This document shows, piece after piece, positions 3,857 through 19,050 of a stretch of DNA of 20,569 nucleotides. This stretch comes from a virus. The notes under the pieces are model-generated. The model searched no databases. It was not told the origin of the DNA and saw only the letters and a program-made list of their open reading frames with translations. Made by a program: the position numbers and the translations under genes. Each line of letters opens with the position of its first letter. Within the stretch, counting starts at the first letter, position 1. Location of the stretch: positions 1 to 20,569 of IMG/VR virus record IMGVR_UViG_3300028388_004221; one strand, given 5' to 3'.

Positions 3857-4370
3857 ATATTTTTTTCTTTATGATGTTCCTACACACTCTGATGTAAAGG
3901 ATAAATTTCTCTTATATTTTGATGAGCTTACAGACAAATATAATTTAGAAGATAATCCTTCAGGAGGAACCACTAGTACTGATTATTTTAAATCGACGGG
4001 TAACGACTGGGTATCTCCTTATAAACATATATTAGAAGAGCATATATACCCAGTAGTCAAGGAAAACTTACTTTATTTTACTGGCAACTCGGGAATTAAA
4101 TTTCAAGGAGCTTGGTTTCAACAATATGATTATGGCTCATGGTTTAGTTATCACACCCACCCTAATAGCAATTTTGCCGGTATTTACTATGTAGAATTGC
4201 CAAGTGGAAGCGCTACCGAGTTTTTAAAGTTCCAGCCTCCAGAAGTAAAGGAAGGTCAGGTATTAGTTTTTCCATCTTTTTTAGCTCATAGATCTAATCC
4301 TAATCCTAGCAAAGATAGAAAAACTGTTGTGTCTTTTAATTTTGATTTATTTTATAAGGCTAGTAGATAA
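3843..4370 (+). CDS. Putative 2OG-Fe(II) oxygenase
   Basis: A 175-aa protein resembling the phage-rich 2OG-Fe(II) oxygenase group (double-stranded beta-helix fold). The region YHTHPNSNFAGIYYVELP (103-120) fits the H-x-H/D...SGxYYV block. His149 (FLAHRSNPN) would be the distal iron ligand, and Arg159 (DRKTVVSFNFD) would bind 2-oxoglutarate. Such enzymes hydroxylate proteins, sugars or other small molecules. The substrate cannot be told; the next gene is a carbamoyltransferase, and hydroxyl groups are what carbamoyltransferases modify, so a hydroxylation-then-carbamoylation pair is possible (inference). The start overlaps the small basic gene and has no strong Shine-Dalgarno. AT-rich codon use matches the glycan island. 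Confidence 0.75.
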   Translation: MNKPEYFFLYDVPTHSDVKDKFLLYFDELTDKYNLEDNPSGGTTSTDYFKSTGNDWVSPYKHILEEHIYPVVKENLLYFTGNSGIKFQGAWFQQYDYGSWFSYHTHPNSNFAGIYYVELPSGSATEFLKFQPPEVKEGQVLVFPSFLAHRSNPNPSKDRKTVVSFNFDLFYKASR

Positions 4371-4371
4371 A

Positions 4372-6159: not shown

Positions 6160-6333
6160 ATGTGGGTATTATTAGTTATGATTATGACCTCCGGCTCTAA
6201 CCCGGAGGTCGTTGCTTATGACCAAGGATGGTTTACAAACTGGGGTGAGTGCAGAAGTATGGGTAAAGCCATGACGGCTGAACTCGATGGTAATTATAAC
6301 TATGTGTGTGTTGAGTGGAAAAAGAAAAATTAG
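6160..6333 (+). CDS. 57-aa small exported or membrane-anchored protein
   Basis: The protein starts MWVLLVMIMTSGS, a short hydrophobic N-terminus that could be a signal or anchor, followed by a small domain with two cysteines (GECRSMGK and YNYVCVEW) that could pair outside the cytoplasm. It begins 6 bases after the EF-hand membrane gene and lacks a strong Shine-Dalgarno. The 9-bp hairpin at 6186-6210 lies within it. Small T4-like phage proteins ending YxYVCV are familiar to me, but I cannot name a function. Its 3' end overlaps the GTG start of the next gene by 19 bases. Confidence 0.55.
   Translation: MWVLLVMIMTSGSNPEVVAYDQGWFTNWGECRSMGKAMTAELDGNYNYVCVEWKKKN
6186..6210 (+). other. Perfect 9-bp GC-rich hairpin inside a coding region
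   Basis: GACCTCCGG (6186-6194) and CCGGAGGTC (6202-6210) are perfect inverted repeats with a 7-base loop. It is one of the strongest hairpins in this AT-rich window. The following bases (GTTGCTT) are not a T run, so a classical terminator is unlikely. It lies just before the large glycan island. Confidence 0.6.
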
Positions 6334-7154
6334 GTTACTGGCATGATAGGGTCAGCAATTGGAAAGATAATTATGGTAAAGACTATATAGAATGGAAAGG
6401 CACTCCTGGGATAGGAGATGCTATGTATGGTCTCAACATAGCTCACATGAGAGCTTTTATTATCCAAAAACCTGTTACTATTAACATACACTGGTATCAT
6501 CCAAAAGAATTTTATTACCATTTTGAAGACCCAGAGACGATAATAGAGCGGGTAGATTATATACACACAAAATATATGTGGTCTCATATGGTTCATGTAC
6601 AGCATACTTTCAATTCAGATGATTTAAAGTTATATGCTCAAAGATATCGTAACGTTAATCGCCTTGAGAAGGATCCATTAGCTAGATATTGGATGTTTAA
6701 TCCTAAATATTTTAGTAACGTCGACCCTAGAAAAATAGTAATTTGGAGGCCTTCATTTAATGCTGATACTCCTCGATGGTTTAAATTACCTTTAAATGAT
6801 GATGAATGGATAAATATAATTGAAAAACTTAAAAACCTAGATTATTTAGTCGTTGAGATAGATTATAGAACCCCTATTAGAGAAGCATTTTATCATATAA
6901 GTTCAGCTAAATTTTGTCTTTCATATGAAGGAATGTGGCATTATGTAGCTAAAAATCTTTTTAAACCGCATTTAGTTTTAGGAGATGATTCTGTTACTAA
7001 ATGGCACACTCCATTTGCAATTATGAAAAATCCTAAACAAATACCCATTGAGAAAAAAATAAAACGAATTCATGTTCTTATTGAAAAAGCAAAAAAAAAG
7101 CAAGAAGTAGGATTTAAAAACTTTTACAAATTAGTGTTTAACAATGAAAATTGA
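6315..7154 (+). CDS. GT9/heptosyltransferase-like glycosyltransferase
   Basis: A 279-aa protein of GT-B type related to family 9 (ADP-heptose:LPS heptosyltransferase-like). The N-terminal GTPGIGDAMYGLNIA (29-43) is the glycine-rich loop of the acceptor domain. In the C-terminal half, KIVIWRPSF starts the nucleotide-sugar domain and ISSAKFCLSYEGMWHYVAK corresponds to the family's SGxxH..A motif, here with EG in place of SG. The enzyme would move a sugar from a nucleotide donor to a glycan. The frame opens only at 6315 (a stop lies directly before), so GTG is the likely start. No Shine-Dalgarno is visible, so coupling to the preceding gene is likely. The C-terminus is lysine-rich. First gene of cargo block 3; ends in an overlap with the radical SAM gene. 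Confidence 0.7.
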   Translation: MEKEKLGYWHDRVSNWKDNYGKDYIEWKGTPGIGDAMYGLNIAHMRAFIIQKPVTINIHWYHPKEFYYHFEDPETIIERVDYIHTKYMWSHMVHVQHTFNSDDLKLYAQRYRNVNRLEKDPLARYWMFNPKYFSNVDPRKIVIWRPSFNADTPRWFKLPLNDDEWINIIEKLKNLDYLVVEIDYRTPIREAFYHISSAKFCLSYEGMWHYVAKNLFKPHLVLGDDSVTKWHTPFAIMKNPKQIPIEKKIKRIHVLIEKAKKKQEVGFKNFYKLVFNNEN

Positions 7155-8091
7155 CCGCGCAGTAATTGAAATAAATGGTGGATGTAACTATCAGTGTGAG
7201 ATGTGCCCTCAAAGCCAACCTGGAGGACGCGGCAAAAACTGGTTAAAGAAGATGCCGTTAATAGAGTTCGAAAGCATTGTGTCTCAGTGCGCAGAGAAAG
7301 GGCTTAACGTAGTTAATCTAGAAGGCTCAGGCGAGCCTACTCTTAATAGAAACCTTCCTGAATATATTAAGATCGTTAAGAAGTATGGCGCTAAAGCATT
7401 TATGTTTTCTAATGGATTTAGAATGCAGGGTGACTTTATGAAAGAGTGTGTCGAAGCAGGGGTAGATTTTTATCGATTTAGTATTATTGGTTATGATCAC
7501 GAAACTTATAAACAATGGATGGTATCAGACAATTTCGATCAGGTTGTTAACAACGCTTACCACATGCAAAAGTATGTAGAAGAAGTAGGCTCTGATTGTG
7601 TAGTGGCTTCTTATCATTTAATTTTAGATAACAATAATATTGATTTCGAATTAGAAAAATACAAATCATTAGTTGAATATATGGGTATTAAAACTGAGAT
7701 TTGGAAGATGCATAATTGGTCAGGAGTGTATGATGTTAATTACAAACGTGAAGGAAAAGTTAAGACTTGCGGTAGACCGTTTTCTCCTGACTTGGTTATT
7801 CGCGCTGGAGGTCTGGATGGTCGCTCTGGTGCCGTTCATCCTTGTTGCCAAGTTCTTGGAAGAGATGATGAAGCTGTTCTAGGACATTTAAGTGAGCAGA
7901 CTATAGAACAGATTTGGAATGGTGATAAATACTCTAAATTAAGAGAGGATCATCTATCTGGTAATTATCCTGACTATTGTAAAGACTGTGATTTTTTAAT
8001 TGATGATCCAGAAGTTCTTGTATACACTAATCACGAAAGAGATCTATATAAAATGCACGGTACTAATTTTAACCTAGAAGATTATAGGTAA
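7144..8091 (+). CDS. Radical SAM/SPASM-domain enzyme
   Basis: A 315-aa radical SAM protein. CNYQCEMC gives Cys14, Cys18 and Cys21 for the [4Fe-4S]/SAM site; NLEGSGEPTLNRNL is the SAM-binding GE motif, and FMFSNGFRM follows the usual strand. The C-terminal region has the SPASM pattern: TCGRPF, HPCCQ, LGHL, TIEQIWNGDKYSKLRE and YCKDCDF, for an auxiliary iron-sulfur cluster. SPASM enzymes modify peptides, sugars (such as aminoglycoside dehydrogenases) or other substrates. Set among glycosyltransferases, a sugar substrate such as a dehydrogenation or epimerisation is plausible but unproven. Codon use here is slightly less AT-extreme than in the next genes. The start overlaps the GT9-like gene by 11 bases; the next gene starts 2 bases after the stop. 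Confidence 0.9.
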   Translation: MKIDRAVIEINGGCNYQCEMCPQSQPGGRGKNWLKKMPLIEFESIVSQCAEKGLNVVNLEGSGEPTLNRNLPEYIKIVKKYGAKAFMFSNGFRMQGDFMKECVEAGVDFYRFSIIGYDHETYKQWMVSDNFDQVVNNAYHMQKYVEEVGSDCVVASYHLILDNNNIDFELEKYKSLVEYMGIKTEIWKMHNWSGVYDVNYKREGKVKTCGRPFSPDLVIRAGGLDGRSGAVHPCCQVLGRDDEAVLGHLSEQTIEQIWNGDKYSKLREDHLSGNYPDYCKDCDFLIDDPEVLVYTNHERDLYKMHGTNFNLEDYR

Positions 8092-8093
8092 TT

Positions 8094-8756
8094 ATGGAAT
8101 CATTTCATAGTCATATTCCTGTATTTTGCATCTATATTCCTACTAATTTTATTTCTACTTTTTATATGAGTAAAGTAAAACCTTCCTGGGAAGACTATGG
8201 ATTTAACGTTACTTTATTTCCAGCAGTAGATTTAAGTAATGAGGTTTATTTAGATTTAAAAAGCAAATTTATTTCTAAAAAACGCCCTTATAATAATATA
8301 GGTAAAGCAAAATGGCGAGTATCTGAGATATCAAGATTTTTATCTCACGTATTGCTATGGAGAGAGATAAAACTTAAGAGAAACATATCTGAAGCTTTTA
8401 TTATTGAGCATGATTGTAAATTAACAAGAAATTTTCCTGAATCATTTACTGATAAAGAAGTTAATTTTTTTACTCAAAGCTCTACTCCTAATTTTATTAC
8501 TAATTATCAATTACTATCATTAAAACCTTGTTCCGGGTATTTTCTAAAAAAGTCTTTTGCAATTAAGCTGTTAGAATATTTCAGTTATAGAAACGTTGAA
8601 GTTGACATTGACGAGTTTTTATTTAATGTAGCACTGGAAGAAGAGGTAATAAATTTACCAAGTTTTTATTCAAATGATAATGTCTTTGCTAGGGAAGAAT
8701 TTGACCCTATCGTAGGAAATACTGTTTTTAAAGAAAAGCCTGATTATAATTTATGA
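8094..8756 (+). CDS. GT25-like glycosyltransferase, copy 1
   Basis: A 220-aa protein of the family 25 type (LPS biosynthesis galactosyltransferase-like). FCIYIPTNF near the start, LFPAVDL (41-47), FLSHVLLWREI (82-92) and FIIEHD (102-107, EHD equivalent to the family's ExD metal/sugar site) appear in the family order, followed by SGYFLKKSFAIKLLEYF, the substrate-closing block. It would transfer a sugar from a nucleotide donor to a growing glycan. Tandem with copy 2 through an ATGA overlap. Very AT-rich; the ATG has only a weak AGGT upstream. Confidence 0.72.
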   Translation: MESFHSHIPVFCIYIPTNFISTFYMSKVKPSWEDYGFNVTLFPAVDLSNEVYLDLKSKFISKKRPYNNIGKAKWRVSEISRFLSHVLLWREIKLKRNISEAFIIEHDCKLTRNFPESFTDKEVNFFTQSSTPNFITNYQLLSLKPCSGYFLKKSFAIKLLEYFSYRNVEVDIDEFLFNVALEEEVINLPSFYSNDNVFAREEFDPIVGNTVFKEKPDYNL

Positions 8757-9361
8757 ATTCAAAAGATTTAGTAGTATGGATGATTGTTATAAGAGATAAT
8801 CCTATTTCAATTTTACATATGGAAAAATCTCTCCCATCCTGGAAAAATTATAAAATAGAAATTTTCAATGCAGTAACTCCTAAAGATTTAAGTTTTTTAA
8901 ATGAACTTTTTTTTTACAAGAAATGGAGTTCAGGCAACAGTTTTACTGATACAGAAAAAGCGGTTTGGTATAGTCATTTTTTACTCTGGAAGCAATGCTT
9001 TTATGAAAAAAAGCCGTTGATAGTAATCGAACATGATAGTATACTTAGAAAAGATATAGGGTCGGTTACTCATAGTAAACTACTTTCTTTTTTGACTGAC
9101 AGAAAAGAAACTCCTATGGATCCAGTCGAAGACGGTAAAATTTTATCTCCTGGATCGGGCTATGTAATTTTCCCGGATGAAATCTTACCTTTTATTAATT
9201 TTATTAAAAACGTTCCTATAATTTCTAACGTAGATGGTTATATAAGAGATTTTATACAAACAAAATATGGGTGGCCTTCTGATTTTAGCTATATTGAACA
9301 AAAACAACAGAGTTGCTACACAACTATTGATCATGGAAAAAATTTTTTGGATGTATGGTAA
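8753..9361 (+). CDS. GT25-like glycosyltransferase, copy 2
   Basis: A 202-aa protein collinear with the preceding GT25-like gene: WMIVIRDNP, IFNAVTPKDL (37-46), WYSHFLLWKQC (72-82), IVIEHD (90-95) and SGYVIFPDEI. The two neighbours are clearly diverged paralogues rather than a recent duplication. The C-terminal part (DGYIRDFIQTKYGWP) keeps the Asp seen in the other copies. Start by ATGA overlap with no Shine-Dalgarno, so translation probably depends on the upstream gene. Three bases separate it from the GT8-like gene that follows. Confidence 0.7.
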   Translation: MNSKDLVVWMIVIRDNPISILHMEKSLPSWKNYKIEIFNAVTPKDLSFLNELFFYKKWSSGNSFTDTEKAVWYSHFLLWKQCFYEKKPLIVIEHDSILRKDIGSVTHSKLLSFLTDRKETPMDPVEDGKILSPGSGYVIFPDEILPFINFIKNVPIISNVDGYIRDFIQTKYGWPSDFSYIEQKQQSCYTTIDHGKNFLDVW

Positions 9362-9364
9362 AAA

Positions 9365-10150
9365 ATGAAAAGATTAATTTATCAGGTTTATGTTGGAAAC
9401 AAAAATAAATTATATGATAATTGTACTAGCTCGGTAGAACAATATTGTATTGCAAATAATATTGATCATTATGTACAAACTACTCCTAAGCTTAAAATTA
9501 AACCTGATGTGTTTGCAACAAATAGGTCTAAAGAGTCGTATGAGAAGTATGGTGGCTTCTTACCAATCTATGAAAAAGAAAATGCATTTGAGTATTTTAA
9601 AGATTATGATCAGATAGCTATAATCGACGCTGACATTTTTATTAAACCAGGCTCTCCTAATATCTTTAATGAGATTAGTAAAGGTGTAGACTTTGCTGGA
9701 GTTGTTGAGAGAGAAATGCCTCTTACGGATGCATATATGAATAAGATTATTAACTACTCTAAAATGCAATATCTTCCTCTAAAGAATAAAGCGGATTTTA
9801 GACTTAATAGTCTAGGCTTTGAGTTCTTTAATATGGGTCTGATGGTCATGAATAAATCTATTATAAGATTTTTAGATGGGCAGACTCCCAAGCAGTTTAT
9901 TCAAAGAGCTGAGTTTAAAGACTTTGTAGATGGTAAGGGTGCTTGGAAATGGTCTACTGATCAAACTCTTCTTAACTACTGGATCAAAAAATATAAGATT
10001 AGAGAACAGCATCTAGACTGGAAATGGAATGGTTTATATAAAGGTATAAAAGATGATAAAATTAAAGATGCTTATTTTGTACATTTCTTCTTAAGAGATA
10101 AGTTGCCTGATCGTGGTGAGAATATTACTGAAATATTGTCTAATATTTAA
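9365..10150 (+). CDS. GT-A (GT8-like) glycosyltransferase with DxD, copy 1
   Basis: A 261-aa nucleotide-sugar transferase of the GT-A fold. It begins with a strand typical of these phage enzymes (RLIYQVYVGN). The DxD metal site is IAIIDADIFI (Asp88, Asp90), followed by FFNMGLMVMNK, WSTDQTLLNYW and AYFVHFFLRDKLP, the usual order in GT8 and related families. It would use a Mn-bound nucleotide sugar as donor. The nearest relative inside the window is the gene at 16446, with the same start and block order. Shine-Dalgarno weak. The next gene starts directly after the stop. Confidence 0.72.
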   Translation: MKRLIYQVYVGNKNKLYDNCTSSVEQYCIANNIDHYVQTTPKLKIKPDVFATNRSKESYEKYGGFLPIYEKENAFEYFKDYDQIAIIDADIFIKPGSPNIFNEISKGVDFAGVVEREMPLTDAYMNKIINYSKMQYLPLKNKADFRLNSLGFEFFNMGLMVMNKSIIRFLDGQTPKQFIQRAEFKDFVDGKGAWKWSTDQTLLNYWIKKYKIREQHLDWKWNGLYKGIKDDKIKDAYFVHFFLRDKLPDRGENITEILSNI

Positions 10151-11041
10151 ATGTCTAAAGTAGGATTTATTGGAGAGCCGGGTTCAGGGATTAATTTTCT
10201 GTGCACTCTATATTTAAAAGATTTAGGTTTTAAAAATCATACTATCTATGTTTCTGATGCCAATGAATATATTCCTCCTAATGAGCTTAACTCTTTTAAA
10301 AAATTAGTTACTCCTGACCTACAAATAATTGACTTACCTAATAATTTACCTCCTGGTAGTTTTTCTAGTCCAATAGATTATTTTCACTATTTACATATTC
10401 ATAAATACGATGAATTAAATAACCCTTTAATTAGTAGAAATAATTTAAGAAAAACTTTTTTACTTAAAACAGATAAAATAGATAAAATTACTCAAAATAA
10501 ATTAAGTAAGTTATTTTTTATAAAACGACGAATAAGCAATTTAATACACTATAATCAAGAATATGTTGACGAAAATAATCTAGCTCCTAATTATTACAAT
10601 AGCTTTTTTCAATTAATGCAAAGGGATTATCATTATTATGAAAGCTTTTTAAAGTATGATGATTTTCTAAAAACTAATTTTAGTATGGTTTGTAGTTTGT
10701 CTATGGTAGGTATTGAATACTTTGCGTTCAACTCTGGTGCTTTAGATAAAGATATTTTTAGAGATTATATTAAACAAACCTTAAAAGAAAATTATCGTAA
10801 GTACTGGGTAGGATTAGATAATGAATGGCAAGAAGAGGCTATTAAAAAAGTAAAAGATGTATTAGCAAGACGCAAAATACCTATTTTCTTAGAAGTAGAT
10901 TATAATGATGTATTTTACCATCATAAAACTAATTCATTTTTAGATAACTATAAACAAGAAATTAGTAATTATACAAAAACTAACAGACAATTGATACAGC
11001 GATTTAATGAAGAATTTAATTTATCAGACATATACGGGTAA
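10151..11041 (+). CDS. P-loop protein, sulfotransferase-like (tentative)
   Basis: A 296-aa protein with a nucleotide-loop-like N-terminus, KVGFIGEPGSGINFLCTLYL. GxPGSGxNFL is close to the 5'-phosphosulfate loop of sulfotransferases (GxPxSGT) and to some kinases. The rest is rich in Lys, Asn, Tyr and Phe, has no clear 3'-phosphate motif that I can place, and ends with a Tyr/Asn-rich helix region. Sulfation of a glycan would fit the context, but this is weak. Strongly AT-rich, with no Shine-Dalgarno. The frame immediately after the stop continues to look coding if one base of the GGG at 11036-11038 is removed, so the true C-terminus may be about 45 residues longer. Confidence 0.45.
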   Translation: MSKVGFIGEPGSGINFLCTLYLKDLGFKNHTIYVSDANEYIPPNELNSFKKLVTPDLQIIDLPNNLPPGSFSSPIDYFHYLHIHKYDELNNPLISRNNLRKTFLLKTDKIDKITQNKLSKLFFIKRRISNLIHYNQEYVDENNLAPNYYNSFFQLMQRDYHYYESFLKYDDFLKTNFSMVCSLSMVGIEYFAFNSGALDKDIFRDYIKQTLKENYRKYWVGLDNEWQEEAIKKVKDVLARRKIPIFLEVDYNDVFYHHKTNSFLDNYKQEISNYTKTNRQLIQRFNEEFNLSDIYG

Positions 11042-11060
11042 GCTTCCGGACCATGCTAGA

Positions 11061-11174
11061 ATGAGCGCAGTATCTTTTAAAAGATATCATGAAGACACAA
11101 ATTTTATTTATTTAAATTTTTTAGATAATTTTACTTTATCTGAACGAGAAATTCGTGATAGACTTAACCCATAG
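11061..11174 (+). pseudogene. 37-aa ORF, probably the frameshifted tail of the preceding gene
   Basis: The 140 bases between genes hold one open frame, MSAVSFKRYHEDTNF through DRLNP. The frame also stays open upstream of the ATG (GKLPDHAR before it), and there is no ribosome-binding site. Removing one G at 11036-11038 joins it to the P-loop gene as DIYGKLPDHARMSAV. It is therefore more likely a detached C-terminus than a separate gene, but a real small gene or a programmed shift is not excluded. Confidence 0.35.
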
Positions 11175-11181
11175 ATAATAT

Positions 11182-11904
11182 ATGAAAGCTTTTATTATAA
11201 GTTTAGTTAATGATAGTGTATCTTCTTATGGAGCTAAGAGATGCATTAATACTATCGAGAAAACTAACAGTCATCTAGAACCGTCTATTTTTCAAGGCAC
11301 ATCACCAGATACGTTAGAATTACACTGGAAAGCTTTTCTTCCAGATGTCCGCTGGACTTACCCTGAACCTAATATAATAAGACATGATTTGCTAACCGGA
11401 TTAACTTTAACAGGTTATCCTACTAAAGATATGCGCAAACGAAAAGCTTGTCTCCTTAGTCATGTTAGATTATGGAAAATGTGTATTGAATTAAATCAAG
11501 CTATTTTAATCTTAGAGCATGATGCTGCTTTTACTAGACAGTTTATCTTTGAAGATATAAGAGATAAATTTACTGGATGTATTTTAGGAATTAACAGTCC
11601 TCTTAAAGCTACACGCAAAGCAAATGCCTTTCATCATGAAGTTATTAAGCAGCAAGATCCCAATAATTTCTTTACAATTACAGATGCTCCTTGGATAGAT
11701 GATAGGTCTATACCCCAAGGTCTAGCTGGTAACTCTGCATATATTATCAAACCTTTTGCTGCTAAGGCTTTACTAAATAGAATGAAAGATATAGGAGCAT
11801 GGCCAAACGACGCTTTAATGTGTAAGCAGCAGTTTCCATGGTTACAAGTTATTTATCCTTATTTCACAGAAGTACAAGGTTTAAAGTCGACCACATCGTT
11901 ATGA
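11182..11904 (+). CDS. GT25-like glycosyltransferase, copy 3
   Basis: A 240-aa GT25-type protein: AFIISLVND (3-11), IFQGTSPD, LLSHVRLWKMC (91-101), ILILEHDAAF (108-117), a longer middle insertion, then GNSAYIIKPFAAKALLNRM and WPNDALMCKQQFPWLQVIYP. The last block aligns well with the end of copy 5 (FLSLESFPFLQEMYPWP). This is the clearest family member with copies 4 and 5. Role: transfer of a sugar to a glycan acceptor, probably soluble or membrane-peripheral, as no membrane segment is seen. It is followed by a GT9-like gene through an ATGA overlap, the same GT25-GT9 order as at 13555-14998. Confidence 0.75.
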   Translation: MKAFIISLVNDSVSSYGAKRCINTIEKTNSHLEPSIFQGTSPDTLELHWKAFLPDVRWTYPEPNIIRHDLLTGLTLTGYPTKDMRKRKACLLSHVRLWKMCIELNQAILILEHDAAFTRQFIFEDIRDKFTGCILGINSPLKATRKANAFHHEVIKQQDPNNFFTITDAPWIDDRSIPQGLAGNSAYIIKPFAAKALLNRMKDIGAWPNDALMCKQQFPWLQVIYPYFTEVQGLKSTTSL

Positions 11905-12659
11905 AACATATTGCATTAAGATCAATGAGTGTTAGAGATAATTCTAAACCATATACAACTCCTGGTTTGGGAGATAGAGCTCATAGTGTGTTGATGGCTT
12001 ACCAATACGGTAAAGCTCATAATACTCCTGTTACTATTCATCTTACTTCAGACAAGTTTGGTAAGCCTCATAAAAAAGTTTCTTGGAAAGAGCTATCAGA
12101 AATGACTGATGGTTTTGTACAATATCAAGATTGGCCTATGTGTAAGTTACCAGAGGCTGAATGGTTAAAATATCTCAGAACACAAAATATCGAAGCTGAA
12201 ATCTATCATTACAAAGATACTATGTACATGCATAAATTTGAATTTGAAGATGGTATTGAAATATCTCAATACTTCAAAGAGCTTCCATGCATAGACCCTA
12301 TTGATTGTTCTGCTGATCTTATTCTTCCAGAAAAATTTGTCACTGTTCAATGGGATTCCACAGATGCAGGAAGAAGACCTTCACCTATCTTAGCTCATAA
12401 GCTAGAGCGAGAATGTAAAGATGCTGGTTACGAAATAGTGGTTATTGGTGGTCAAGCTAAGAATGATCTTCTCCGAGATTCTCTTAAACATATAGGCTAT
12501 GCTATTTCTAAGGCTGATCATCATCTGGGAGTAGATTCAGGTATGATCCATGTTGCTCAATTTTATAAACCATGGAATAAAATTCATATCTGGCAACCTA
12601 AATTTATCTCTCATCATTTTGTAAGAGCAAAAAATAATGGCGCGGTAATATTACAATGA
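11901..12659 (+). CDS. GT9/heptosyltransferase-like glycosyltransferase
   Basis: A 252-aa GT-B protein. TTPGLGDRAHSVLMA (19-33) is the GxGD loop of family 9, KFVTVQWDST opens the donor domain, YEIVVIGGQ is the Rossmann strand, and DHHLGVDSGMIHVAQ carries the SGxxH motif that contacts the nucleotide sugar. A start at 11901 is chosen because it gives the standard ATGA overlap and puts the first strand (HIALRSMS) at the N-terminus; an upstream ATG at 11838 would add an unlikely 21-residue extension. The donor is probably a nucleotide-activated sugar; heptose is not certain. Slightly shorter than bacterial heptosyltransferases (about 320-350 aa). Confidence 0.78.
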   Translation: MKHIALRSMSVRDNSKPYTTPGLGDRAHSVLMAYQYGKAHNTPVTIHLTSDKFGKPHKKVSWKELSEMTDGFVQYQDWPMCKLPEAEWLKYLRTQNIEAEIYHYKDTMYMHKFEFEDGIEISQYFKELPCIDPIDCSADLILPEKFVTVQWDSTDAGRRPSPILAHKLERECKDAGYEIVVIGGQAKNDLLRDSLKHIGYAISKADHHLGVDSGMIHVAQFYKPWNKIHIWQPKFISHHFVRAKNNGAVILQ

Positions 12660-13009
12660 AAGTAGAAATTAGCATAGGAGACTTTTTTGATCGAATGAGT
12701 ATATTATCGATTAAAAACGATCATGGTCTTGCTGTAGAAAAAGAACTTAAAGTATATGCTGAACAAGCTAATCAATTTGAAGAGTTTGCCTTTGCAAGAT
12801 ATTTTAATATAATAAAGAGTGTTAACAAGCAGCTCTGGGAATTAGAAGATAAGAAACGCAAAGGTGTGGAAAGATATTCAACAGAAGAAAGCGATGTAGC
12901 ATTTATGATTACCGAGCTCAATGATCTGAGACATAAAGTTAAGCAAGCCATAGATAGGTATTTCAAAAGCGAATTTACAGAAGAGAAAAGCCACAATGAG
13001 AGACACTGA
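12656..13009 (+). CDS. DUF6165-like protein
   Basis: A 117-aa, mostly helical protein starting MKVEISIGDFFDRMSILSIK. The opening (V-E-x-S-x-G-[DE]-x-x-D-[KR]-x-[ST]-I-L-x-I-K) and the helical remainder with a predicted coiled-coil-like middle match DUF6165 as I remember it, a family found in marine alphaproteobacteria and phages and often near glycan genes. No function is established. Joined by ATGA to the GT9-like gene before it and by a 14-base overlap to the methyltransferase after it, so it probably acts with them. Confidence 0.65.
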   Translation: MKVEISIGDFFDRMSILSIKNDHGLAVEKELKVYAEQANQFEEFAFARYFNIIKSVNKQLWELEDKKRKGVERYSTEESDVAFMITELNDLRHKVKQAIDRYFKSEFTEEKSHNERH

Positions 13010-13577
13010 CTACAACGCAGCTAAAACATTAGAAGATGTTTATGATATTTACAAATCGACCTGGAGTGATACAACCGCTCACAGAAACGAAGCATTAATG
13101 GAATGTGCTCGTGAATCTGAAAGCATTTCTGAGCTCGGTGTTAATCAAGGATCTTCATTTATTATGCTAATGCTACAGAATCCTAAGAAGATAGTTGGAG
13201 TAGATGTTACATTAAAAAAATGGAGAAAAGGTAATTCAAGTTTTGGATATCAAGCATTAGAACCTCTAGCATTAGAATATATGAAAAATAATCCTATGGA
13301 ATATATTATGTACGAGGGCAGCTCTACTGATAAGAAATCTGTTCATAAAGTTGATATGCTTCATATTGACAGTCTTCATAATCCGTCTCATTTAACTCGG
13401 GAATTAAAAATGCATGCTGATTCAGTCAACAAGTATATTGCATTCCATGATATTAAGCAAAACGGATATCAGTTGTGGAAAGTAGTAGAAAGATTCTTAA
13501 ATGATAATCCCCAGTGGAAGCTAAAAACTTTTTATGATGAAGGTAAGTGCGGTCATGTCGAAATCGAGCGTGCTTAA
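12996..13577 (+). CDS. Class I SAM-dependent methyltransferase-like protein
   Basis: A 193-aa Rossmann-fold protein with ISELGVNQGSSFIML (44-58; motif I, E/DxGxxxGxS), KIVGVDVT (motif II, Asp70), VDMLHIDSLHNPSHL (a D/H-rich motif typical of Methyltransf_24 and cephalosporin-hydroxylase-like enzymes) and YIAFHDIKQNGYQLWKVV. Many of these act on sugars or small molecules with a metal ion. The context suggests methylation of a glycan unit. Start chosen at the first ATG, overlapping DUF6165 by 14 bases. It overlaps the next gene by 23 bases. Confidence 0.78.
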   Translation: MRDTDYNAAKTLEDVYDIYKSTWSDTTAHRNEALMECARESESISELGVNQGSSFIMLMLQNPKKIVGVDVTLKKWRKGNSSFGYQALEPLALEYMKNNPMEYIMYEGSSTDKKSVHKVDMLHIDSLHNPSHLTRELKMHADSVNKYIAFHDIKQNGYQLWKVVERFLNDNPQWKLKTFYDEGKCGHVEIERA

Positions 13578-14271
13578 AGGTCAGATTACTTACATTAAAG
13601 GTCATAAAGACTCAGAGAAGCAAGCCGGCCAATCTCTTGCTTCTTTTCAGAAATTTAAAAACTGGGATATAACGCTAGAAGAAGGCTTAACAGCTACTAC
13701 CGCTCCTATGATCGCCGAGTTTAATAATCGTATTATTGAAGAGAGTAGACTTCATAATTTTAAAGTTGAAAACTGGGATCGGTTTTGCACTAAGATGGCT
13801 TGTGCTATCAATCACCTAGTATTTTTTAGAAAAGTAGTTACTGCCGATGAACCTATGGTTTTCTTAGAGCATGATGCTGTTTGTTTAGAGTCTTGGGGTG
13901 GATATGAATTTGATGACTATCTCTGTCTTAATGCTGAATTTGTTTTTAGACCTCCTAATAAATTAGGACTCCAACAATTTAAAGAATATAATTTTTTAGG
14001 ATTTGGAGTAAGAGACTTTCCTGAAGACTATCCTCTGCTCTATCATAAAAATAATATCTGGAAGAATAGTAAAATGGCTCCAGGTACAGGAGCATATGCT
14101 ATAACTCCAAAAGGAGCTAAGAAAATGCTTCATGCAATTGGCACTCTAGGAATTGATCAATCAGACTTTATGATCAACTCTAGTAATCTTAGAATGCAAC
14201 TGTTAATGCCTAGTCCAATTAAATTTAATTCTACTAACTTAAGCACATCGTATGGATACAATCAGAGTTAA
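13555..14271 (+). CDS. GT25-like glycosyltransferase, copy 4
   Basis: A 238-aa protein from the ATG at 13555: ITYIKGHKDS replaces the usual first strand, then ACAINHLVFFRKVV (82-95; Asn-His instead of Ser-His), MVFLEHDAVC (101-110) and GTGAYAITPKGAKKMLHAI. The ATG at 13555 is preferred over 13534 because it begins the homologous region and has GAAGGTAAG upstream. Reduced match in the SHxxLW block makes this the most diverged of the five copies, but the EHD core is intact. Ends inside the start of another GT9-like gene (20-base overlap). Confidence 0.7.
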   Translation: MSKSSVLKGQITYIKGHKDSEKQAGQSLASFQKFKNWDITLEEGLTATTAPMIAEFNNRIIEESRLHNFKVENWDRFCTKMACAINHLVFFRKVVTADEPMVFLEHDAVCLESWGGYEFDDYLCLNAEFVFRPPNKLGLQQFKEYNFLGFGVRDFPEDYPLLYHKNNIWKNSKMAPGTGAYAITPKGAKKMLHAIGTLGIDQSDFMINSSNLRMQLLMPSPIKFNSTNLSTSYGYNQS

Positions 14272-14998
14272 ATGTAAAGAACCTCCTAAGCAATTAGGTG
14301 ATTGCATTGATATGGTGTTATACTGCCATATGTTGAGCGTTGTAGAAAATAAAGAAGTAAATCTTGAAATAAACTCTAATAGTAGAATTGATTATTTTAA
14401 TAGTTTAATTAGTATTGGAGGTAAAGTTTCAGTAAATAATAGCAATAAAGGGGTCTATACGTTAGAATATAGATCTGGACTGGATGGTGCCTCTCAATAT
14501 CTCTTAATATCTACACAAGTAGATAATATAAAGACATCTGTAATACCTGAAAATTGTATAGTTAGAATACCTAAAAAGTTTGTTACAGTACAATGGGACG
14601 CAGCTCAGAAATATAGACTGCTGGATAAAGAGAGAATAATAACTATCGAACAATTTTATAAAGACCAAGGTTACGATATCGTAGACATTGGCCACAAGCT
14701 ATACTCACTACAAGCTACATCATATATTTTATCTCAAGCTGATTATCATGTAGGAGTTGATTCAGGAATGGCTCATATAGCCAAGCTTATTCTTCCTATG
14801 GATAGATTGCACTTATATGTCAATACTCGTAATAGAGAGAACGATAAAAGATTCCCCGATAGTATAGATGTAGCGTGGATGGCTAGAGAGATGTTTCGTC
14901 GGGGAGCTAAAATGAACTTCTGTGAGAATCCATCACAAGAACAAATAGATTATTTTAAGGATTCCAGTATATGGCTCGGGCTGGTCTCCTCTATTTGA
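14252..14998 (+). CDS. GT9/heptosyltransferase-like glycosyltransferase
   Basis: A 248-aa GT-B protein: PPKQLGDCIDMVLYC (11-25; the LGD loop of family 9), RIPKKFVTVQWDAAQ opening the donor domain, YDIVDIG and DYHVGVDSGMAHIAK (SGMAHIA, the nucleotide-sugar motif). It aligns well with the gene at 11901 in both halves. The last residues (SSIWLGLVSSI) lie over a region where the next frame also looks coding, so the natural C-terminus may have been altered. Transfers a sugar; donor unknown. Begins within the end of GT25-like copy 4. Confidence 0.75.
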   Translation: MDTIRVKCKEPPKQLGDCIDMVLYCHMLSVVENKEVNLEINSNSRIDYFNSLISIGGKVSVNNSNKGVYTLEYRSGLDGASQYLLISTQVDNIKTSVIPENCIVRIPKKFVTVQWDAAQKYRLLDKERIITIEQFYKDQGYDIVDIGHKLYSLQATSYILSQADYHVGVDSGMAHIAKLILPMDRLHLYVNTRNRENDKRFPDSIDVAWMAREMFRRGAKMNFCENPSQEQIDYFKDSSIWLGLVSSI

Positions 14999-15077
14999 CA
15001 ATGTTGACTTCTTAACAAGAGACAAAACAGAAGATTCTATTACTGTAAATGCTAGAGATACAGATCAACCTTCCGAT
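14949..15077 (+). pseudogene. Startless coding-like extension of the truncated GT9-like gene
   Basis: In the frame of the 15078 gene the sequence is open from just after a TAG at 14946 and reads through SGWSPLFDNVDFLTRDKTED and DSITVNARDTDQPSDV. This resembles the part of a GT9 N-domain just before the linker (acceptor side). The first 48 bases overlap the end of the preceding gene in another frame. There is no usual start codon, so it is most likely a remnant or a frameshifted part. Confidence 0.45.
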
Positions 15078-15725
15078 GTGCATATTGACTATTATCTTAA
15101 ACATAAAAAGAGAGATATACTAGGTGAAAGGCTGATTTATAGAAACTTTAAACCTTCTCCCTTTAGAATAAGATTAACAGAAAAAGAACTAGAACAAGCT
15201 AAAGACCGAGTGGAGGCACTAGATCTAGATCGCTTTTGTATAGTTAACCCTGACTATAAATCATCATTCTTTTCTAAGAATAAAAACTGGGGTTTTAAAA
15301 AGTATCAGGAATTGACTGATAGGTTAAGCTCGCATATTCCAGTAATAAGATTTCAACCACAGGATGAACAATATGGTGAGCCAGTCTTAGATAATGCTAT
15401 TAATATACCGGGTATAAATGTTAGATTAGCTTCAGCTATTATGTCATTGTCTTCGTTTGGTGTGACATTTGATGGTTTTGTCCAACATGCTATGGCTGGT
15501 TTCGGTAGACCTTGTGTAGTAATATGTGGTGGCCTAGTTAGTCAAAAATCCTTTGGATACGATAATAATATATACCACGAGTATAAACATCCATTAACTC
15601 CTTGTGGTAGTACATTTGATTGTAGCCATTGTAAGGAAGCGAACTTATCTATTACTGTAGACGATGTATTTGAATCATGTTTAAGGTTATTGAATGAAAG
15701 TAGTTCTAGTCACCGGAGGATTTGA
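15078..15725 (+). CDS. GT9-like glycosyltransferase, N-terminally truncated or startless
   Basis: From GTG at 15078 this gives 215 aa containing mainly the donor half of a family 9 enzyme: FCIVNPDYKSS, NWGFKKYQELTDRL, IPVIRFQP, and FDGFVQHAMAGFGRPCVVICGG, where DGxxxH..AxxxxP is the nucleotide-sugar site. The end (STFDCSHC) has CxxC. No N-terminal GxGD domain is present. The same frame stays open back to 14949 and reads like protein (YGSGWSPLFDNVDFLTRD), yet contains no ATG, GTG or TTG before 15078. Either the N-terminus was lost by deletion or a frameshift separates it. The GTG has no ribosome-binding site. It may be a decaying gene. Overlaps the next start by 32 bases. Confidence 0.6.
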   Translation: MHIDYYLKHKKRDILGERLIYRNFKPSPFRIRLTEKELEQAKDRVEALDLDRFCIVNPDYKSSFFSKNKNWGFKKYQELTDRLSSHIPVIRFQPQDEQYGEPVLDNAINIPGINVRLASAIMSLSSFGVTFDGFVQHAMAGFGRPCVVICGGLVSQKSFGYDNNIYHEYKHPLTPCGSTFDCSHCKEANLSITVDDVFESCLRLLNESSSSHRRI

Positions 15726-16446
15726 TCCTCTTCACTCAGGTCATATAGCTTATTTTAAAGCTGCCAAGAGCCTGGGGGATAAACTAATTGTTGGTATAAA
15801 CTCTGACAACTGGTTATCTCGAAAGAAAGGCCGACCGTTTATGAGCTGGTTCGAAAGATCTAAAATTATTCAACATCTGGATATGGTAGATTATGTTATT
15901 GAATTTAACGACGATGATAATAGTTCTAGATTAGCTCTTAAACTAGTTAAACAAACCTGGTCTGATGCTAATATAATTTATGCTAACGGTGGAGATAGAA
16001 CTGATAAAAATATTCCTGAGATGGACGTTGAAGGGGTAGAATTTGTTTTTGGAGTTGGCGGTCAGGATAAAAAGAATAGCTCCTCATGGATTCTAAAGAA
16101 TTGGGTACAACCAGCTATTGAAAGAGGCTGGGGATCTTATACTGTTTTAGATCATGGAGACGGGTGGCTTACCAAAAAGCTCTCTTTTAATGTAGGAGAG
16201 TCATTAAGTGATCAGTTTCATAAAAATAGGTCAGAGCATTGGCATGTAGTTGAAGGCAGCATTAAAATGGTATTAGAGCATGCAAATGGTATGCCAACTA
16301 ATCACTACCTAGAGAAAGGTGAAAGTGTTAATATACCAGCTGGAGTATGGCATAAAGCTACTAATATTGGTAATAAGACCGCCAGAGTCATCGAAGTTTG
16401 GCTAGGTGATGAATTATCAGAAGAAGACATAGAAAGAAGAGATTAA
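15694..16446 (+). CDS. Nucleotidyltransferase-cupin fusion (sugar-nucleotide activation)
   Basis: A 250-aa two-domain protein. Residues 1 to about 137 are a cytidylyltransferase/adenylyltransferase-like domain (GGFDPLHSGHIAYFKAAK; HSGH 14-17 is the HxGH catalytic motif; NSDNWLSRKKGRPFM and SSSWILKNW match the RfaE-C/TagD type). Residues about 150-240 form a cupin with SEHWHVVEGS (metal-type His182, His184), IPAGVWHKATN (His220) and IEVWLG, like the C-terminal cupin of mannose-6-phosphate isomerase/GDP-mannose pyrophosphorylase enzymes. The first domain would activate a sugar phosphate with a nucleotide; the second could isomerise it. If so, one protein supplies an activated sugar to the transferases around it. 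AAGG precedes the ATG. The exact sugar is unknown. Confidence 0.8.
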   Translation: MKVVLVTGGFDPLHSGHIAYFKAAKSLGDKLIVGINSDNWLSRKKGRPFMSWFERSKIIQHLDMVDYVIEFNDDDNSSRLALKLVKQTWSDANIIYANGGDRTDKNIPEMDVEGVEFVFGVGGQDKKNSSSWILKNWVQPAIERGWGSYTVLDHGDGWLTKKLSFNVGESLSDQFHKNRSEHWHVVEGSIKMVLEHANGMPTNHYLEKGESVNIPAGVWHKATNIGNKTARVIEVWLGDELSEEDIERRD

Positions 16447-17171
16447 TGAAAACATTAGTTATACAAGTAAAGGTAGGTAATACATCTGGTTATGCATACA
16501 GTGATCCTAATGCTCCAGATCTCTTTGATCAATACTTAGTTCCTACTGTTCGTCGATATTGTGAGAAGCATGGGTATGAGTACGACTACATTACTGAATA
16601 TCCTGAAGATAAAGATCTTCTCTGGTTTAATAAAAACACTAAACCTAAAAATTATGACTACTCAAAAGGTGGTAAAAATAAATCAGCTACTTTAATCCGA
16701 TACTTGCAAATGGGTCGAGATTATGATAGAATTATATCTTTAGATAATGACGTGTGGATTCCGGAATGGGCAGAACCTCTTCCTGAGCTAGATGGCCATC
16801 ATGCTTGTAGAGATTATGGTAAAACATGGGAAGGGTTTAGAAGCAAGCATCCCTTACCAGATGACATCTTTGTAAACGCTGGTGTGCAGATGGTTAACAG
16901 AGAAGCAGGTCAAAGCCTATACAAATATCTCTGTAAAGTAGTAGATAATAAAATACCTCCTATCAGTGGTTACCACAGTGATCAGGGGTATATGAACTAT
17001 TGGAGATCTAAGAATAAGCATCTAGCTCGCTACTTAGAAACGAAATGGAATTTTATGGTAGGCTGTCAACCTAGAACATCTGATTATAGTAAAATGAATT
17101 TTATTCACTATGCAGGAGATGCCACCAGAAAGCTTCTTAGACAAGATATCCAGAAAGGCTTGATTAAATGA
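16446..17171 (+). CDS. GT-A (GT8-like) glycosyltransferase with DxD, copy 2
   Basis: A 241-aa GT-A protein: TLVIQVKVGN at the start parallels the 9365 gene. IISLDNDVWI holds the DxD site (Asp100, Asp102), then DIFVNAGVQMVNR, YHSDQGYMNYW and NFIHYAGDATRK follow in the GT8-like order. It would bind a nucleotide sugar with a divalent metal. Starts with a one-base TAATG overlap with the nucleotidyltransferase-cupin gene and ends ATGA into GT25-like copy 5, so the three are probably translated together. Confidence 0.76.
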   Translation: MKTLVIQVKVGNTSGYAYSDPNAPDLFDQYLVPTVRRYCEKHGYEYDYITEYPEDKDLLWFNKNTKPKNYDYSKGGKNKSATLIRYLQMGRDYDRIISLDNDVWIPEWAEPLPELDGHHACRDYGKTWEGFRSKHPLPDDIFVNAGVQMVNREAGQSLYKYLCKVVDNKIPPISGYHSDQGYMNYWRSKNKHLARYLETKWNFMVGCQPRTSDYSKMNFIHYAGDATRKLLRQDIQKGLIK

Positions 17172-17818
17172 AATCTTTTGTAATTACTATTATTGATAAT
17201 GAAAAATCAGTTAAAGCAGCTGACAGGTGTATTGCTTCCGCTAAAAAATATGGTTTAGAAGTAGAAAAGTTTCAGGCTATTACACCGGCTGATGATCCAG
17301 TAGCAATTGCAGAAAGTAAAAAAATATCTTTAAAATTATTTAAAGAGCCTTATTCAAGATTTTATAACTGTGTATCTGCGTTTTTGTCTCATTATAGTTT
17401 ATGGGAACAGTGTTTAAAAGATAATGAGCGTTATATAATTTTTGAGCATGACGCTATAGTTACTAACAATATTAATACTAGTGTTAATTCTAGAGGGTGT
17501 ATCAATATTGGTAAGCCTTCATATGGAGGATATAGAAACCCAGGTATACTAGGTGTGGGACCTCTTAGATCTAAAGCATATTTTCCTGGGGCTCATGCAT
17601 ATATCCTAGAACCATTTGCGGCTAGATTTCTTATTGAAAGAGCTAGATTGTTTGCTAAACCAACGGATCTATTTTTAAGTCTGGAATCATTTCCGTTTTT
17701 ACAAGAAATGTATCCATGGCCGGCAGAAGCGAAAGATTCATTTAGTACTATTCAAAAGAAGCTAGGCTGTCTTTCTAAGCATAATTACGGAGAAGAATAT
17801 GTCATCGAAGATGTATGA
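17168..17818 (+). CDS. GT25-like glycosyltransferase, copy 5
   Basis: A 216-aa GT25-type protein: SFVITIIDNEKS (3-14), KFQAITPAD (34-42), FLSHYSLWEQC (72-82), YIIFEHDAIV (89-98), PGAHAYILEPFAARFLIERA, and LFLSLESFPFLQEMYPWP. All the family blocks are intact. It would extend a glycan using a nucleotide sugar. Flanked by two DxD enzymes with overlapping ends, forming a GT8-GT25-GT8 trio with the upstream sugar-activation enzyme. Confidence 0.78.
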   Translation: MKSFVITIIDNEKSVKAADRCIASAKKYGLEVEKFQAITPADDPVAIAESKKISLKLFKEPYSRFYNCVSAFLSHYSLWEQCLKDNERYIIFEHDAIVTNNINTSVNSRGCINIGKPSYGGYRNPGILGVGPLRSKAYFPGAHAYILEPFAARFLIERARLFAKPTDLFLSLESFPFLQEMYPWPAEAKDSFSTIQKKLGCLSKHNYGEEYVIEDV

Positions 17819-18461
17819 TAAAGCTTTTCTTACCGGATGTGATAAAACTACAGAATGGATGCTGCCATGGTTCTTAGATAATTATCATAAGCATAATAAT
17901 ACCCCTCTTGTTCTTGCTGACTTTGGCATGACAAAATTTACTCTTGAGAGCATAAAAGAACAAAAGAGAGTATCAGCGGTGATGGACCTTACTAATACAT
18001 CTGAGAAAGGATGGTTCAAGAAGCCTTTGTCAATGTATAACTGTCCATCTAAGTTAACCTGCTGGATAGATACTGATTGTGAGGTGCTTGGAGATATATC
18101 TTCTGTATTTAATTACGTTGAAGATCAGAAACTTGCTATGGTGTGTGATAGACCTTGGTCTAAAAGAAGTAAAGAGACTTGGTATAATTCAGGTGTAGTA
18201 GCTTTTAAGAATAAGCCTAAAATTTTAGAAAAATGGGTCCAAGCTGTAAAGAAAAATCCCTCTAGAGGTGATCAAGAAACACTGCATCTCCTGTTAGAGA
18301 CCCCTCTAGATCAAATGATCTATATTACTGAACTACATAACAAATATAATTGGCTTAGAGTGCAGATAGAAAACGACAAACAGGATTCTAAAGATAAGTT
18401 AGTGATGCATTGGACAGGTCAAAAAGGTAAAGATAAGATTAAGGGTATGATGAATGGCTAA
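17799..18461 (+). CDS. GT-A glycosyltransferase-like protein with DxD, copy 3
   Basis: A 220-aa protein of the same general layout as other phage GT-A enzymes: DKAFLTGCD at the start, LTCWIDTDCEVLGD (DxD at Asp91/Asp93), WYNSGVVAFKNKP, SRGDQETLHLL and LVMHWTGQKGKDKIKG near the end. The block order fits GT8-like families, with HWTGQKGK as the late His/Lys donor motif. More distant from copies 1 and 2. ATG overlaps the preceding gene by 20 bases and has GGAGAAG upstream. Last gene of the glycan island; the following gene begins inside its 3' end. Confidence 0.75.
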   Translation: MSSKMYDKAFLTGCDKTTEWMLPWFLDNYHKHNNTPLVLADFGMTKFTLESIKEQKRVSAVMDLTNTSEKGWFKKPLSMYNCPSKLTCWIDTDCEVLGDISSVFNYVEDQKLAMVCDRPWSKRSKETWYNSGVVAFKNKPKILEKWVQAVKKNPSRGDQETLHLLLETPLDQMIYITELHNKYNWLRVQIENDKQDSKDKLVMHWTGQKGKDKIKGMMNG

Positions 18462-19050
18462 AGTTGCTCATGTTATTGGTAATGGTGATATGGCTCACAT
18501 GTATAAGCAAGGCTCTAAAGGTCTTAAAGTAACATGTAATCTTCCTCCATTTCCTGTAGAAGGTGTATATACTACCTGCATGGTTGATTTTAAAATGATG
18601 TATGCGATTACAGAAGGTTCTGTAGTAGTTCCTGGTGATTGGACGCTTGGTGCTAGACCTCGTAAGTATATGGAAATGAATCCAGCGTTTTATATGAAGC
18701 ATGCTCCTCAGATTAAAGCTTTCTATCTTACCCTTCCTAAGTATGTTCCTAACTATACAGACTTTAATTGCGGCCATATGGCCGTTCACATGACAGCTAA
18801 TAAGCTGAAAGCTGACGAGATTCATCTATATGGATTTGATTCTATGTTTGATATGAATCTTAGAAGCTGTACTGACTTCTATCTGAATTCTGATAGAGGC
18901 GCTAATAATAACGTCAGACTAAACGATAACTGGCGACCAATCTGGTTAAAGATGTTCGAAGAATTCTCTCAAGTTCAATTCGTTCTCCATCACAAGCATA
19001 ACTCATTGAAATTTAACAAACCTTTAAATGTTGAGATCGTAACAAAATAA
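18454..19050 (+). CDS. Conserved-type phage protein with Rossmann-like N-terminus, function unknown
   Basis: A 198-aa protein. It begins KVAHVIGNGDMAHMYKQGS, followed by LKVTCNLPPF, and later has CGHMAVHMTANKLKADEIHL and YGFDSMFDMNLRSCTDFY. An early GNG loop plus a short C-N-L-P strand is a pattern I recall from cyanophage and pelagiphage hypothetical proteins and, more distantly, from DUF115/MptE-like or sialyltransferase-like folds; this is tentative. AAGGG lies 8 bases before the ATG. Codon use and the good Shine-Dalgarno resemble the core phage genes more than the island, so I place the island boundary here. It contains a 14-base perfect palindrome at 18771-18784 with no known role. Confidence 0.55.
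   Translation: MAKVAHVIGNGDMAHMYKQGSKGLKVTCNLPPFPVEGVYTTCMVDFKMMYAITEGSVVVPGDWTLGARPRKYMEMNPAFYMKHAPQIKAFYLTLPKYVPNYTDFNCGHMAVHMTANKLKADEIHLYGFDSMFDMNLRSCTDFYLNSDRGANNNVRLNDNWRPIWLKMFEEFSQVQFVLHHKHNSLKFNKPLNVEIVTK

Follow-up and report, generated by a model that had tools for sequence, protein, structure and literature searches.

A glycosyltransferase gene island with a recurring frame and exchangeable payload in uncultured marine T4-like phages

We describe a glycan gene island in IMG/VR record IMGVR_UViG_3300028388_004221, analysed over its whole length of 20,569 bases (the window). Its first gene, nrdB, is interrupted at the window start, and the window is therefore a genome fragment. Sequence comparison identifies the source as an uncultured T4-like marine myovirus related to Phage C48C1 (OQ984149), a 156-kb Kyanoviridae record labelled complete, to which nrdB is 85% and an endonuclease 67% identical. 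The rnh gene shows 44% identity to those of both Methylophilales phage Melnitz and HTVC008M, and the portal of a related record is 66%, 52%, and 51% identical to those of C48C1, Melnitz, and HTVC008M, respectively; at the DNA level, the match to GenBank phages is limited to one tRNA stretch. The island lies between rnh and a carbamoyltransferase gene on one side and SprT-like genes on the other, with T4-like phage genes flanking it on both sides. Those found in the window are nrdB, a SegE-type GIY-YIG endonuclease, rnh, and members of the PHROG 461 and 385 families, accompanied by a SprT-like gene, a metallopeptidase-like gene, and, after the island, two tRNAs; PhoH is absent. An assembly join with bacterial DNA, a concern raised in an earlier note on this DNA, is rejected, as phage genes stand on both sides and the same gene order is repeated in many contigs.

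The twelve glycosyltransferase-like genes that the earlier note placed at 6315-18461 are present and correctly called (Table 1), and the profile search it called for did not assign most genes to non-glycosyltransferase families. The set reaches beyond that interval, from the oxygenase at 3843 and the carbamoyltransferase at 4327 to the Maf/GT42-fold gene at 18454, and overlap, described as almost universal, is found at 11 of the 16 junctions among 17 genes. By profile, the five GT25 assignments are beyond doubt: all score above the curated Pfam cut-off of 24 bits and carry EHD, although the SH..LW block is present in four and missing in the gene at 13534. The GT-A and GT9 genes are supported by profile matches under threshold, by motifs, and in one case each by a predicted fold and by a family profile; for seven of the twelve assignments the profiles are of low confidence, and structure models cover two genes, GT9a and the Maf-like gene. 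The three GT-A genes do carry the DxD motifs claimed for them (DAD, DND, and DTD), but their GT8 and Nucleotid_trans matches fall below cut-off, and the GT8a family profile weakly matches WbbM (E 0.027) and LgtC (E 0.16). Among the four GT9-like genes, those at 11838 and 14252 have weak Pfam matches, and those at 6315 and 15078 are placed by fold and by profile; the GxGD motif attributed to all four occurs in 6315 and 11838, with LGD alone in 14252 and neither in 15078. The P-loop-like gene has no family match and no relative among the loci searched, and the DUF6165 and methyltransferase matches stay under their cut-offs (25.7 against 27 bits and 18.7 against 26.3 bits).

Table 1. Genes of the island and its immediate upstream neighbours (all coordinates refer to the window)
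Gene or product	Position	Strand	Support
2OG-Fe(II) oxygenase, upstream accessory	3843..4370	+	Pfam 2OG-FeII_Oxy_5 E 9.9e-11; PHROG 81 E 2.9e-29
NodU/Nol-type carbamoyltransferase	4327..5835	+	Carbam_trans_C E 1.2e-46; Carbam_trans_N E 3.5e-33; PHROG Nol-like
Small hydrophobic protein	5845-6153		no family
GT9a, heptosyltransferase-like GT-B, frame 5' end	6315..7154	+	AlphaFold2 (AF2) predicted fold; no Pfam or PHROG match
rSAM2, radical SAM/SPASM enzyme	7144..8091	+	Pfam Radical_SAM E 7.9e-15; SPASM E 3.7e-11
GT25a	8094..8756	+	Pfam GT25 37.1 bits; EHD
GT25b	8753..9361	+	Pfam GT25 45.2 bits
GT8a, GT-A with DAD, frame gene	9365..10150	+	Pfam GT8 E 0.0014, below cut-off
P-loop-like gene (motif by eye)	10151..11041	+	no family match below E 0.05
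GT25c, frame family	11182..11904	+	Pfam GT25 51.8 bits
GT9b	11838..12659	+	Pfam GT9 E 0.014, below cut-off; GLGD and DSGMIH
DUF6165/DUF4254-like small protein	12656..13009	+	Pfam E 1e-5 and 1.7e-5, just below cut-offs
Methyltransferase-like (Methyltransf_24)	12996..13577	+	Pfam E 0.0034, below cut-off; PHROG 2675 E 4.3e-5
GT25d	13534..14271	+	Pfam GT25 30.8 bits
GT9c	14252..14998	+	Pfam GT9 E 0.0088, below cut-off; LGD and DSGMAH
GT9d, N-terminally truncated, heptosyltransferase-like	15078..15725	+	4-member family profile
Nucleotidyltransferase (HldE C-terminal-like) fused to mannose-6-phosphate isomerase-type cupin	15694..16446	+	Pfam CTP_transf_like E 1.3e-14, MannoseP_isomer E 2.1e-19; NCBIfam rfaE_dom_II E 9.5e-22, below its cut-off
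GT8b, GT-A with DND	16446..17171	+	Pfam GT8 E 0.00045, below cut-off
GT25e, frame family	17168..17818	+	Pfam GT25 49.3 bits
GTnt, GT-A with DTD, frame family	17799..18461	+	Pfam Nucleotid_trans E 0.0024, below cut-off
Maf/GT42-fold glycosyltransferase-like gene, frame 3' end	18454..19050	+	AF2 model, structural alignment

Structure models of the genes at the two ends of the island resemble known transferase folds. The GT9a model adopts a predicted GT-B fold (predicted local distance difference test score, pLDDT, 85) near the lipopolysaccharide (LPS) enzyme WaaC (Z 11.9, 206 aligned residues, 4.0 Å) and TibC (Z 11.2; also the top Foldseek match, E 7.8e-4); its other neighbours are a nucleoside hydrolase (Z 11.5 over half the length) and other GT-B enzymes at about 10, and its profile found no sequence match in the PDB. 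The model of gene 18454 (pLDDT 90.6), whose family holds 37 invariant columns across 19 sequences, has a sialyltransferase/Maf fold: VIA-align returns Magnetospirillum Maf (5mu5) at Z 11.8 (163 aligned residues, 3.3 Å) and Campylobacter Cst-I and Cst-II at Z 10.3 and 10.2. Foldseek against the PDB gave no match to this model under E 0.001, the family profile made one weak match in a PDB sequence search, and eleven viral models matched at E ≤0.001, the named ones being uncharacterised. GT9d lacks a Pfam glycosyltransferase match, and its 4-member family profile matches LPS heptosyltransferase I (E 0.0023). Relative to locus L006, where the homologue overlaps the preceding gene, about 72 nt near 14970 are missing, including the start and the GxGD region. 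PDB sequence matches of GT9b and GT9c are weak and doubtful, and relatives of GT9b start about 60 nt further downstream.

The island recurs widely in viral contigs, which answers the earlier call for a search for the same gene order. rSAM2 has 325 relatives in IMG/VR contigs; the 80 that we kept and examined share 67-76% identity. GT9a lies directly upstream in 65 of these loci, GT8a is present in 74, and PhoH, profile-tested in one member, in 69, although many of the loci stop short of the 3' end of the island. Thirty-six loci extend from rSAM2 to the Maf-like gene, 27 once near-duplicates are removed, and these complete islands have a common frame of GT9-radical SAM, GT8, GT25, GT25, GT-A, and Maf-like genes (GT8a in 25, GT25c in 25, GT25e in 25, and GTnt in 19). 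The order GT25c, GT25e, GTnt, Maf-like gene is found in 30 of the 40 loci with GT25e and the Maf-like gene. The window is unusual in that GT25c sits mid-island, with GT25e, GTnt, and the Maf-like gene consecutive at the end. Because rSAM2 is missing from five of those 40 loci and from all six found through GT9b, the 5' pair of GT9a and rSAM2 is common but not universal. tRNAs lie within 4 kb of the Maf-like gene in 7 of the 19 loci with at least 2 kb of sequence there.

Close relatives of rSAM2 are apparently confined to phages. Among 50,697 GenBank phage records, C48C1 is the only one matching rSAM2 or the Maf-like gene (E 1e-5). We also scanned bacterial and archaeal assemblies (one genome per species, 84,980 species) with an rSAM2 alignment and two peptide patterns that detect close relatives only; 49 stretches matched, and the two that encode an rSAM2 relative both lie inside the same phage island. 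These two loci, L179 and L180, are phage islands in contigs binned to a Sphingobacteriales and a Euryarchaeota metagenome-assembled genome. The nucleotidyltransferase-cupin gene has a separate distribution. It has 238 relatives in viral contigs, of which 80 were kept (L007-L085), most of them outside rSAM2 islands, and one of the loci collected also carries rSAM2; 45 GenBank phage records match it, none across more than 80% of the protein.

Between the frame genes, the islands differ. We compared 24 pairs of distinct islands whose rSAM2 proteins share 85% identity or more and which offer four or more comparable upstream genes. A 240-nt length filter was applied to upstream and payload genes alike. 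Of the upstream genes, 113 of 166 had a counterpart at ≥70% identity, against 100 of 258 payload genes, where the payload includes the semi-constant GT8a and GT25 genes; 12 of the 166 and 68 of the 258 had no partner at all. Upstream genes were better shared than the payload in 20 pairs, the payload was better shared in 2, and 2 pairs were equal, although pairs share members and are not independent. A 450-nt filter gave 95 of 138 and 96 of 244, with the payload less shared in 18 pairs and more shared in 3. The payload thus turns over faster than the adjacent upstream genes. The clearest case is L151 against L158, in which rSAM2 is 98% identical, upstream genes are 64-97% identical, and payload genes range from no partner (4 of 12) to 94%. 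Metagenomes assembled independently of one another contain near-identical payloads (those of L158, L160, and L161 among them), which argues against random chimeras. Among the payload families are a sulfotransferase, methyltransferases, an NAD-dependent epimerase, a HAD-nucleotidyltransferase fusion, a class-I amidotransferase, and a cupin, and several have no Pfam match. One amidotransferase family, f58, may resemble a capsule phosphoramidate enzyme. A payload block headed by family f57 recurs in 12 loci (L108, 12.4-14.9 kb) and comprises ferritin-like (sub-cut-off), class-I glutamine amidotransferase, cupin, and P-loop-like genes; the T4-type late motif TATAAATA lies ≤90 nt upstream of its first gene in 12 of 12 loci.

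Whether such genes are functional is a question raised before; passages of a study of cyanophages leave undecided whether their LPS genes have a function or are 'stuffer DNA' (PMC3037559). We estimated ratios of nonsynonymous to synonymous substitution (dN/dS) from pairs at 85-98% protein identity, with a maximum of 12 per family and 2-4 in some families. Median values for rSAM2 (0.069), GT8a (0.068), GT25c (0.087), GT25e (0.073), GTnt (0.090), the Maf-like gene (0.055), and GT9a (0.130) stand beside 0.087 and 0.084 for the core references rnh and phoH, and most island families are under purifying selection similar to that on phage core genes. Between the window and L006, dN/dS is 0.058-0.347, with synonymous sites near saturation in many genes and no estimate for rnh. 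The idea that the island is non-functional filler or is decaying gains something from the truncation of GT9d, from a short frame at 11042-11181 that by eye may be a remnant, from looser constraint in three families (f58, 0.344; f47, 0.273; the 2OG oxygenase, 0.251), and from single-pair maxima of 0.52 in GT9a and 0.41 in GT25b. Against it, the remaining families have core-like medians of 0.04-0.13 under the same filter, and the same frame is repeated across many contigs. The dN/dS values favour function for island genes in this lineage, and we regard filler as very improbable. The dedicated glycan pathway proposed in the earlier note is well supported, as one of several steps: the frame recurs, purifying selection acts on most families, the enzymes look soluble for the most part, and the islands of relatives carry enzymes that modify sugars (sulfotransferase, methyltransferases, epimerase, and nucleotidyltransferase).

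By gene content, the island belongs with the LPS/glycan clusters of marine T4-like phages, having several glycosyltransferase and sugar genes in a T4-like marine myovirus. To call it an undescribed system, as had been suggested, is too strong, since passages of three papers already describe such clusters (PMC3037559, PMC2984593, PMC7029224). The clusters of P-SSM2 and S-SSM7 are likewise found in T4-like marine Kyanoviridae myoviruses with glycan genes in blocks, and are described there as lying near phoH and tRNA genes (PMC3037559, PMC2984593). Here the picture is mixed: PhoH occurs in 69 of the 80 rSAM2 loci though not in the window, and two tRNAs follow the island in the window, whereas tRNAs lie near the Maf-like gene in only 7 of 19 loci. 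A P-SSM2 block near phoH (236-241 kb) holds a carbamoyltransferase with 30% identity and an adenylyltransferase with 39% identity to the nucleotidyltransferase half of the window fusion; in the annotation, the latter has a phosphoheptose isomerase, a kinase, and the carbamoyltransferase as neighbours. P-SSM2 differs in that its glycosyltransferases are annotated as GT1, GT2, or plain glycosyltransferase and are accompanied by several epimerases, and its 55-252 kb region contains no match to a window glycosyltransferase, rSAM2, or the Maf-like gene (E 1e-3). This particular frame with its exchangeable payload does not appear in the available passages on P-SSM2 and S-SSM7 (PMC3037559, PMC2984593), nor did we find it described in a search of the open-access literature.

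Other relatives share further features. Passages of a pelagimyophage survey describe GT8-rich glycan genes, rfaE, radical SAM cassettes, and a hypervariable island for which superinfection exclusion is proposed (PMC7029224). HTVC008M carries, between nrdB and rnh, homologues of GTnt (33%) and the carbamoyltransferase (27%), together with a radical SAM gene that is only distantly related (26%). The main pelagimyophage island, however, is placed between VrlC and gp14 with tail fibres (PMC7029224), whereas ours is found between rnh and SprT-like genes. Phage C48C1, which we found named in no paper in our literature search, has the carbamoyltransferase (51%), GT9a (34%), rSAM2 (67%), and Maf-like gene (47%), arranged as in the window, but its island is short, with one PHROG-assigned glycosyltransferase of another family and no match found to GT8a or the GT25 families. 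Bacterial O-antigen and lipooligosaccharide (LOS) outer-core loci also combine conserved flanks with a variable middle of glycosyltransferase and sugar-modifying genes; the present island differs in being virus-borne and, by the hydropathy of its proteins, in having no flippase, polymerase, transporter, or ligase seen. The island differs from the known clusters in its set of glycosyltransferase families, in its location with rnh on one side and SprT-like genes on the other, and in having a frame that houses an exchangeable payload.

We propose, with moderate confidence, that the island encodes a cytoplasmic pathway that builds a variable oligosaccharide on the host LPS/LOS core and thereby acts in superinfection exclusion. 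GT25, GT8, and GT9 are families that contain LPS/LOS enzymes, GT9a (by fold) and GT9d (by family profile) being nearest to LPS heptosyltransferases, and together with the HldE-C-like nucleotidyltransferase, whose P-SSM2 relative sits beside annotated heptose genes, they point to LPS/LOS-type chemistry. Across the 27 complete islands, 4 of 333 proteins reach 1.6 on a 19-residue hydropathy window and one reaches 1.9, and no island protein in the window reaches 1.6. Assembly is therefore probably cytoplasmic and any export the host's own, with no flippase, polymerase, or ligase seemingly supplied by the phage. The frame genes (GT9a, rSAM2, GT8a, GT25c, GT25e, GTnt, and the Maf/GT42-like gene) would probably build a shared core, to which payload genes would attach or decorate branches with further sugars, methyl, sulfate, or other groups. 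The most likely acceptor would be the host LPS/LOS core on the cytoplasmic side of the inner membrane. Host ADP-heptose may serve as donor for the GT9 enzymes and a host CMP-sugar, such as CMP-3-deoxy-D-manno-octulosonic acid (CMP-Kdo), for the Maf/GT42-like enzyme. No NeuB was found in 14 records, and CTP_transf_3 matched in two of the 14, one above cut-off, so a CMP-sugar would be host-derived; a Maf enzyme able to use Kdo is described in PMC11339370. The altered LPS would be exported by the infected cell's own route and would prevent adsorption of competing phages, and recombination in the conserved flanks may swap the payload and change the glycan type. The pelagimyophage survey interprets its glycosyltransferases likewise in the passages available (PMC7029224).

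Several points weigh against this proposal. Acceptor and host are both inferred, and the proposal presupposes a host that makes heptose- or Kdo-containing LPS. The rSAM2 enzyme has no known place in LPS synthesis, and it is missing from the loci found through GT9b. The fold of gene 18454 is shared by an archaeal pterin diphosphokinase, HPPK (Z 9.5, 135 aligned), and for this reason its transferase activity is read from context. TibC glycosylates proteins, as does Maf, and their place among the nearest folds also fits virion proteins. The gene neighbourhood leaves room for virion glycosylation, because C48C1 has a tail-lysozyme gene about 2.5 kb upstream of its carbamoyltransferase. The late motif is a weak guide to timing: in C48C1, TATAAATA stands before 7 of the 31 structural gene starts, 2 of the 14 early-type starts, and 1 of the 8 starts in the island (the first two gene sets being hand-picked from annotation), and 42 copies lie within the islands of 37 of 81 loci, 12 of them preceding one payload family. 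As a separate observation, the motif lies ≤90 nt upstream of 13 of 82 nucleotidyltransferase-cupin copies outside rSAM2 loci.

These points bear on an alternative in which capsid, tail, or fibre proteins are glycosylated in the cytoplasm, giving serotype-like differences in coat glycans within the lineage. We consider this a strong rival, though less likely than the LPS/LOS reading. Such a role would suit an island in which 329 of 333 proteins fall below the hydropathy threshold and no export of glycan is apparent, and would suit the last gene, with its fold nearest to Maf, an enzyme described as modifying flagellin in PMC11339370. It would also fit the likeness of GT9a to TibC, the 2OG oxygenase adjoining the island, and the C48C1 neighbourhood, where three large unassigned genes accompany the tail-lysozyme gene upstream. 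On the other hand, the neighbours of the island, both in the window and in the majority of mapped loci, are nrdB, rnh, PhoH, and SprT-like genes and not genes for virion proteins, and LPS enzymes score as well in structural comparison as protein-modifying ones. TATAAATA was not found in the window, a weak argument given its controls. A related suggestion, which we find doubtful but worth stating, is a serotype locus in which a recurring glycan core and exchangeable cassettes give a strain-specific virion glycan, with rSAM2 and the Maf-like gene as common steps.

Host LPS and the virion thus stand as candidates from among the three targets that the earlier note listed, whereas the third, DNA hypermodification, is disfavoured. 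Glycosylation of modified phage bases has a precedent in the glycosylated DNA of T4-like phages. Yet the thymidylate synthase/dCMP hydroxymethylase family PF00303 is unmatched in the complete C48C1 and in 10 of 11 other records, these 11 being fragments or of uncertain completeness, with one partial match, and a dozen enzymes of swapped families are ill-suited to a single base modification; we think this target most improbable. Nor does it seem likely that rSAM2 and its neighbours make a modified peptide or small molecule that the glycosyltransferases decorate. SPASM enzymes often modify peptides, and maturases are among the NCBIfam families nearest to rSAM2, although every such match scores far under its cut-off. 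However, no precursor peptide was noticed, though no systematic search for one was made, and five of the six loci that lack rSAM2 and were found through GT9b retain GT25c, GT25e, and the Maf-like gene.

Other features of the window lie outside the island. The SegE-type endonuclease (772-1227) belongs to PHROG 447, which names the family 'NAD synthetase', a name also used in the GenBank annotations of HTVC008M, P-SSM2, and C48C1. Between it and rnh lies a second radical SAM-like gene (1231-2196; PHROG E 1.5e-10) with no Pfam match at E 0.05 and one relative among the loci. The last 23 nt of the metallopeptidase-like gene (20390-20412) also belong to a tRNA-Arg. Promoter and terminator scans gave counts not above those of shuffled sequence (76 against 75.1 and 6 against 6.8).

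In the passages of the cyanophage study cited above, the choice between function and filler is left open (PMC3037559); purifying selection, a recurring frame, and cassette turnover here indicate function in this lineage, while the demands on the payload change. The conserved rSAM2 and the Maf/GT42-like transferase offer well-defined starting points for biochemistry. Should the glycan go to host LPS, these phages would serotype-convert their hosts during infection, and if virions are the target, the phages would have antigen-like coat types.

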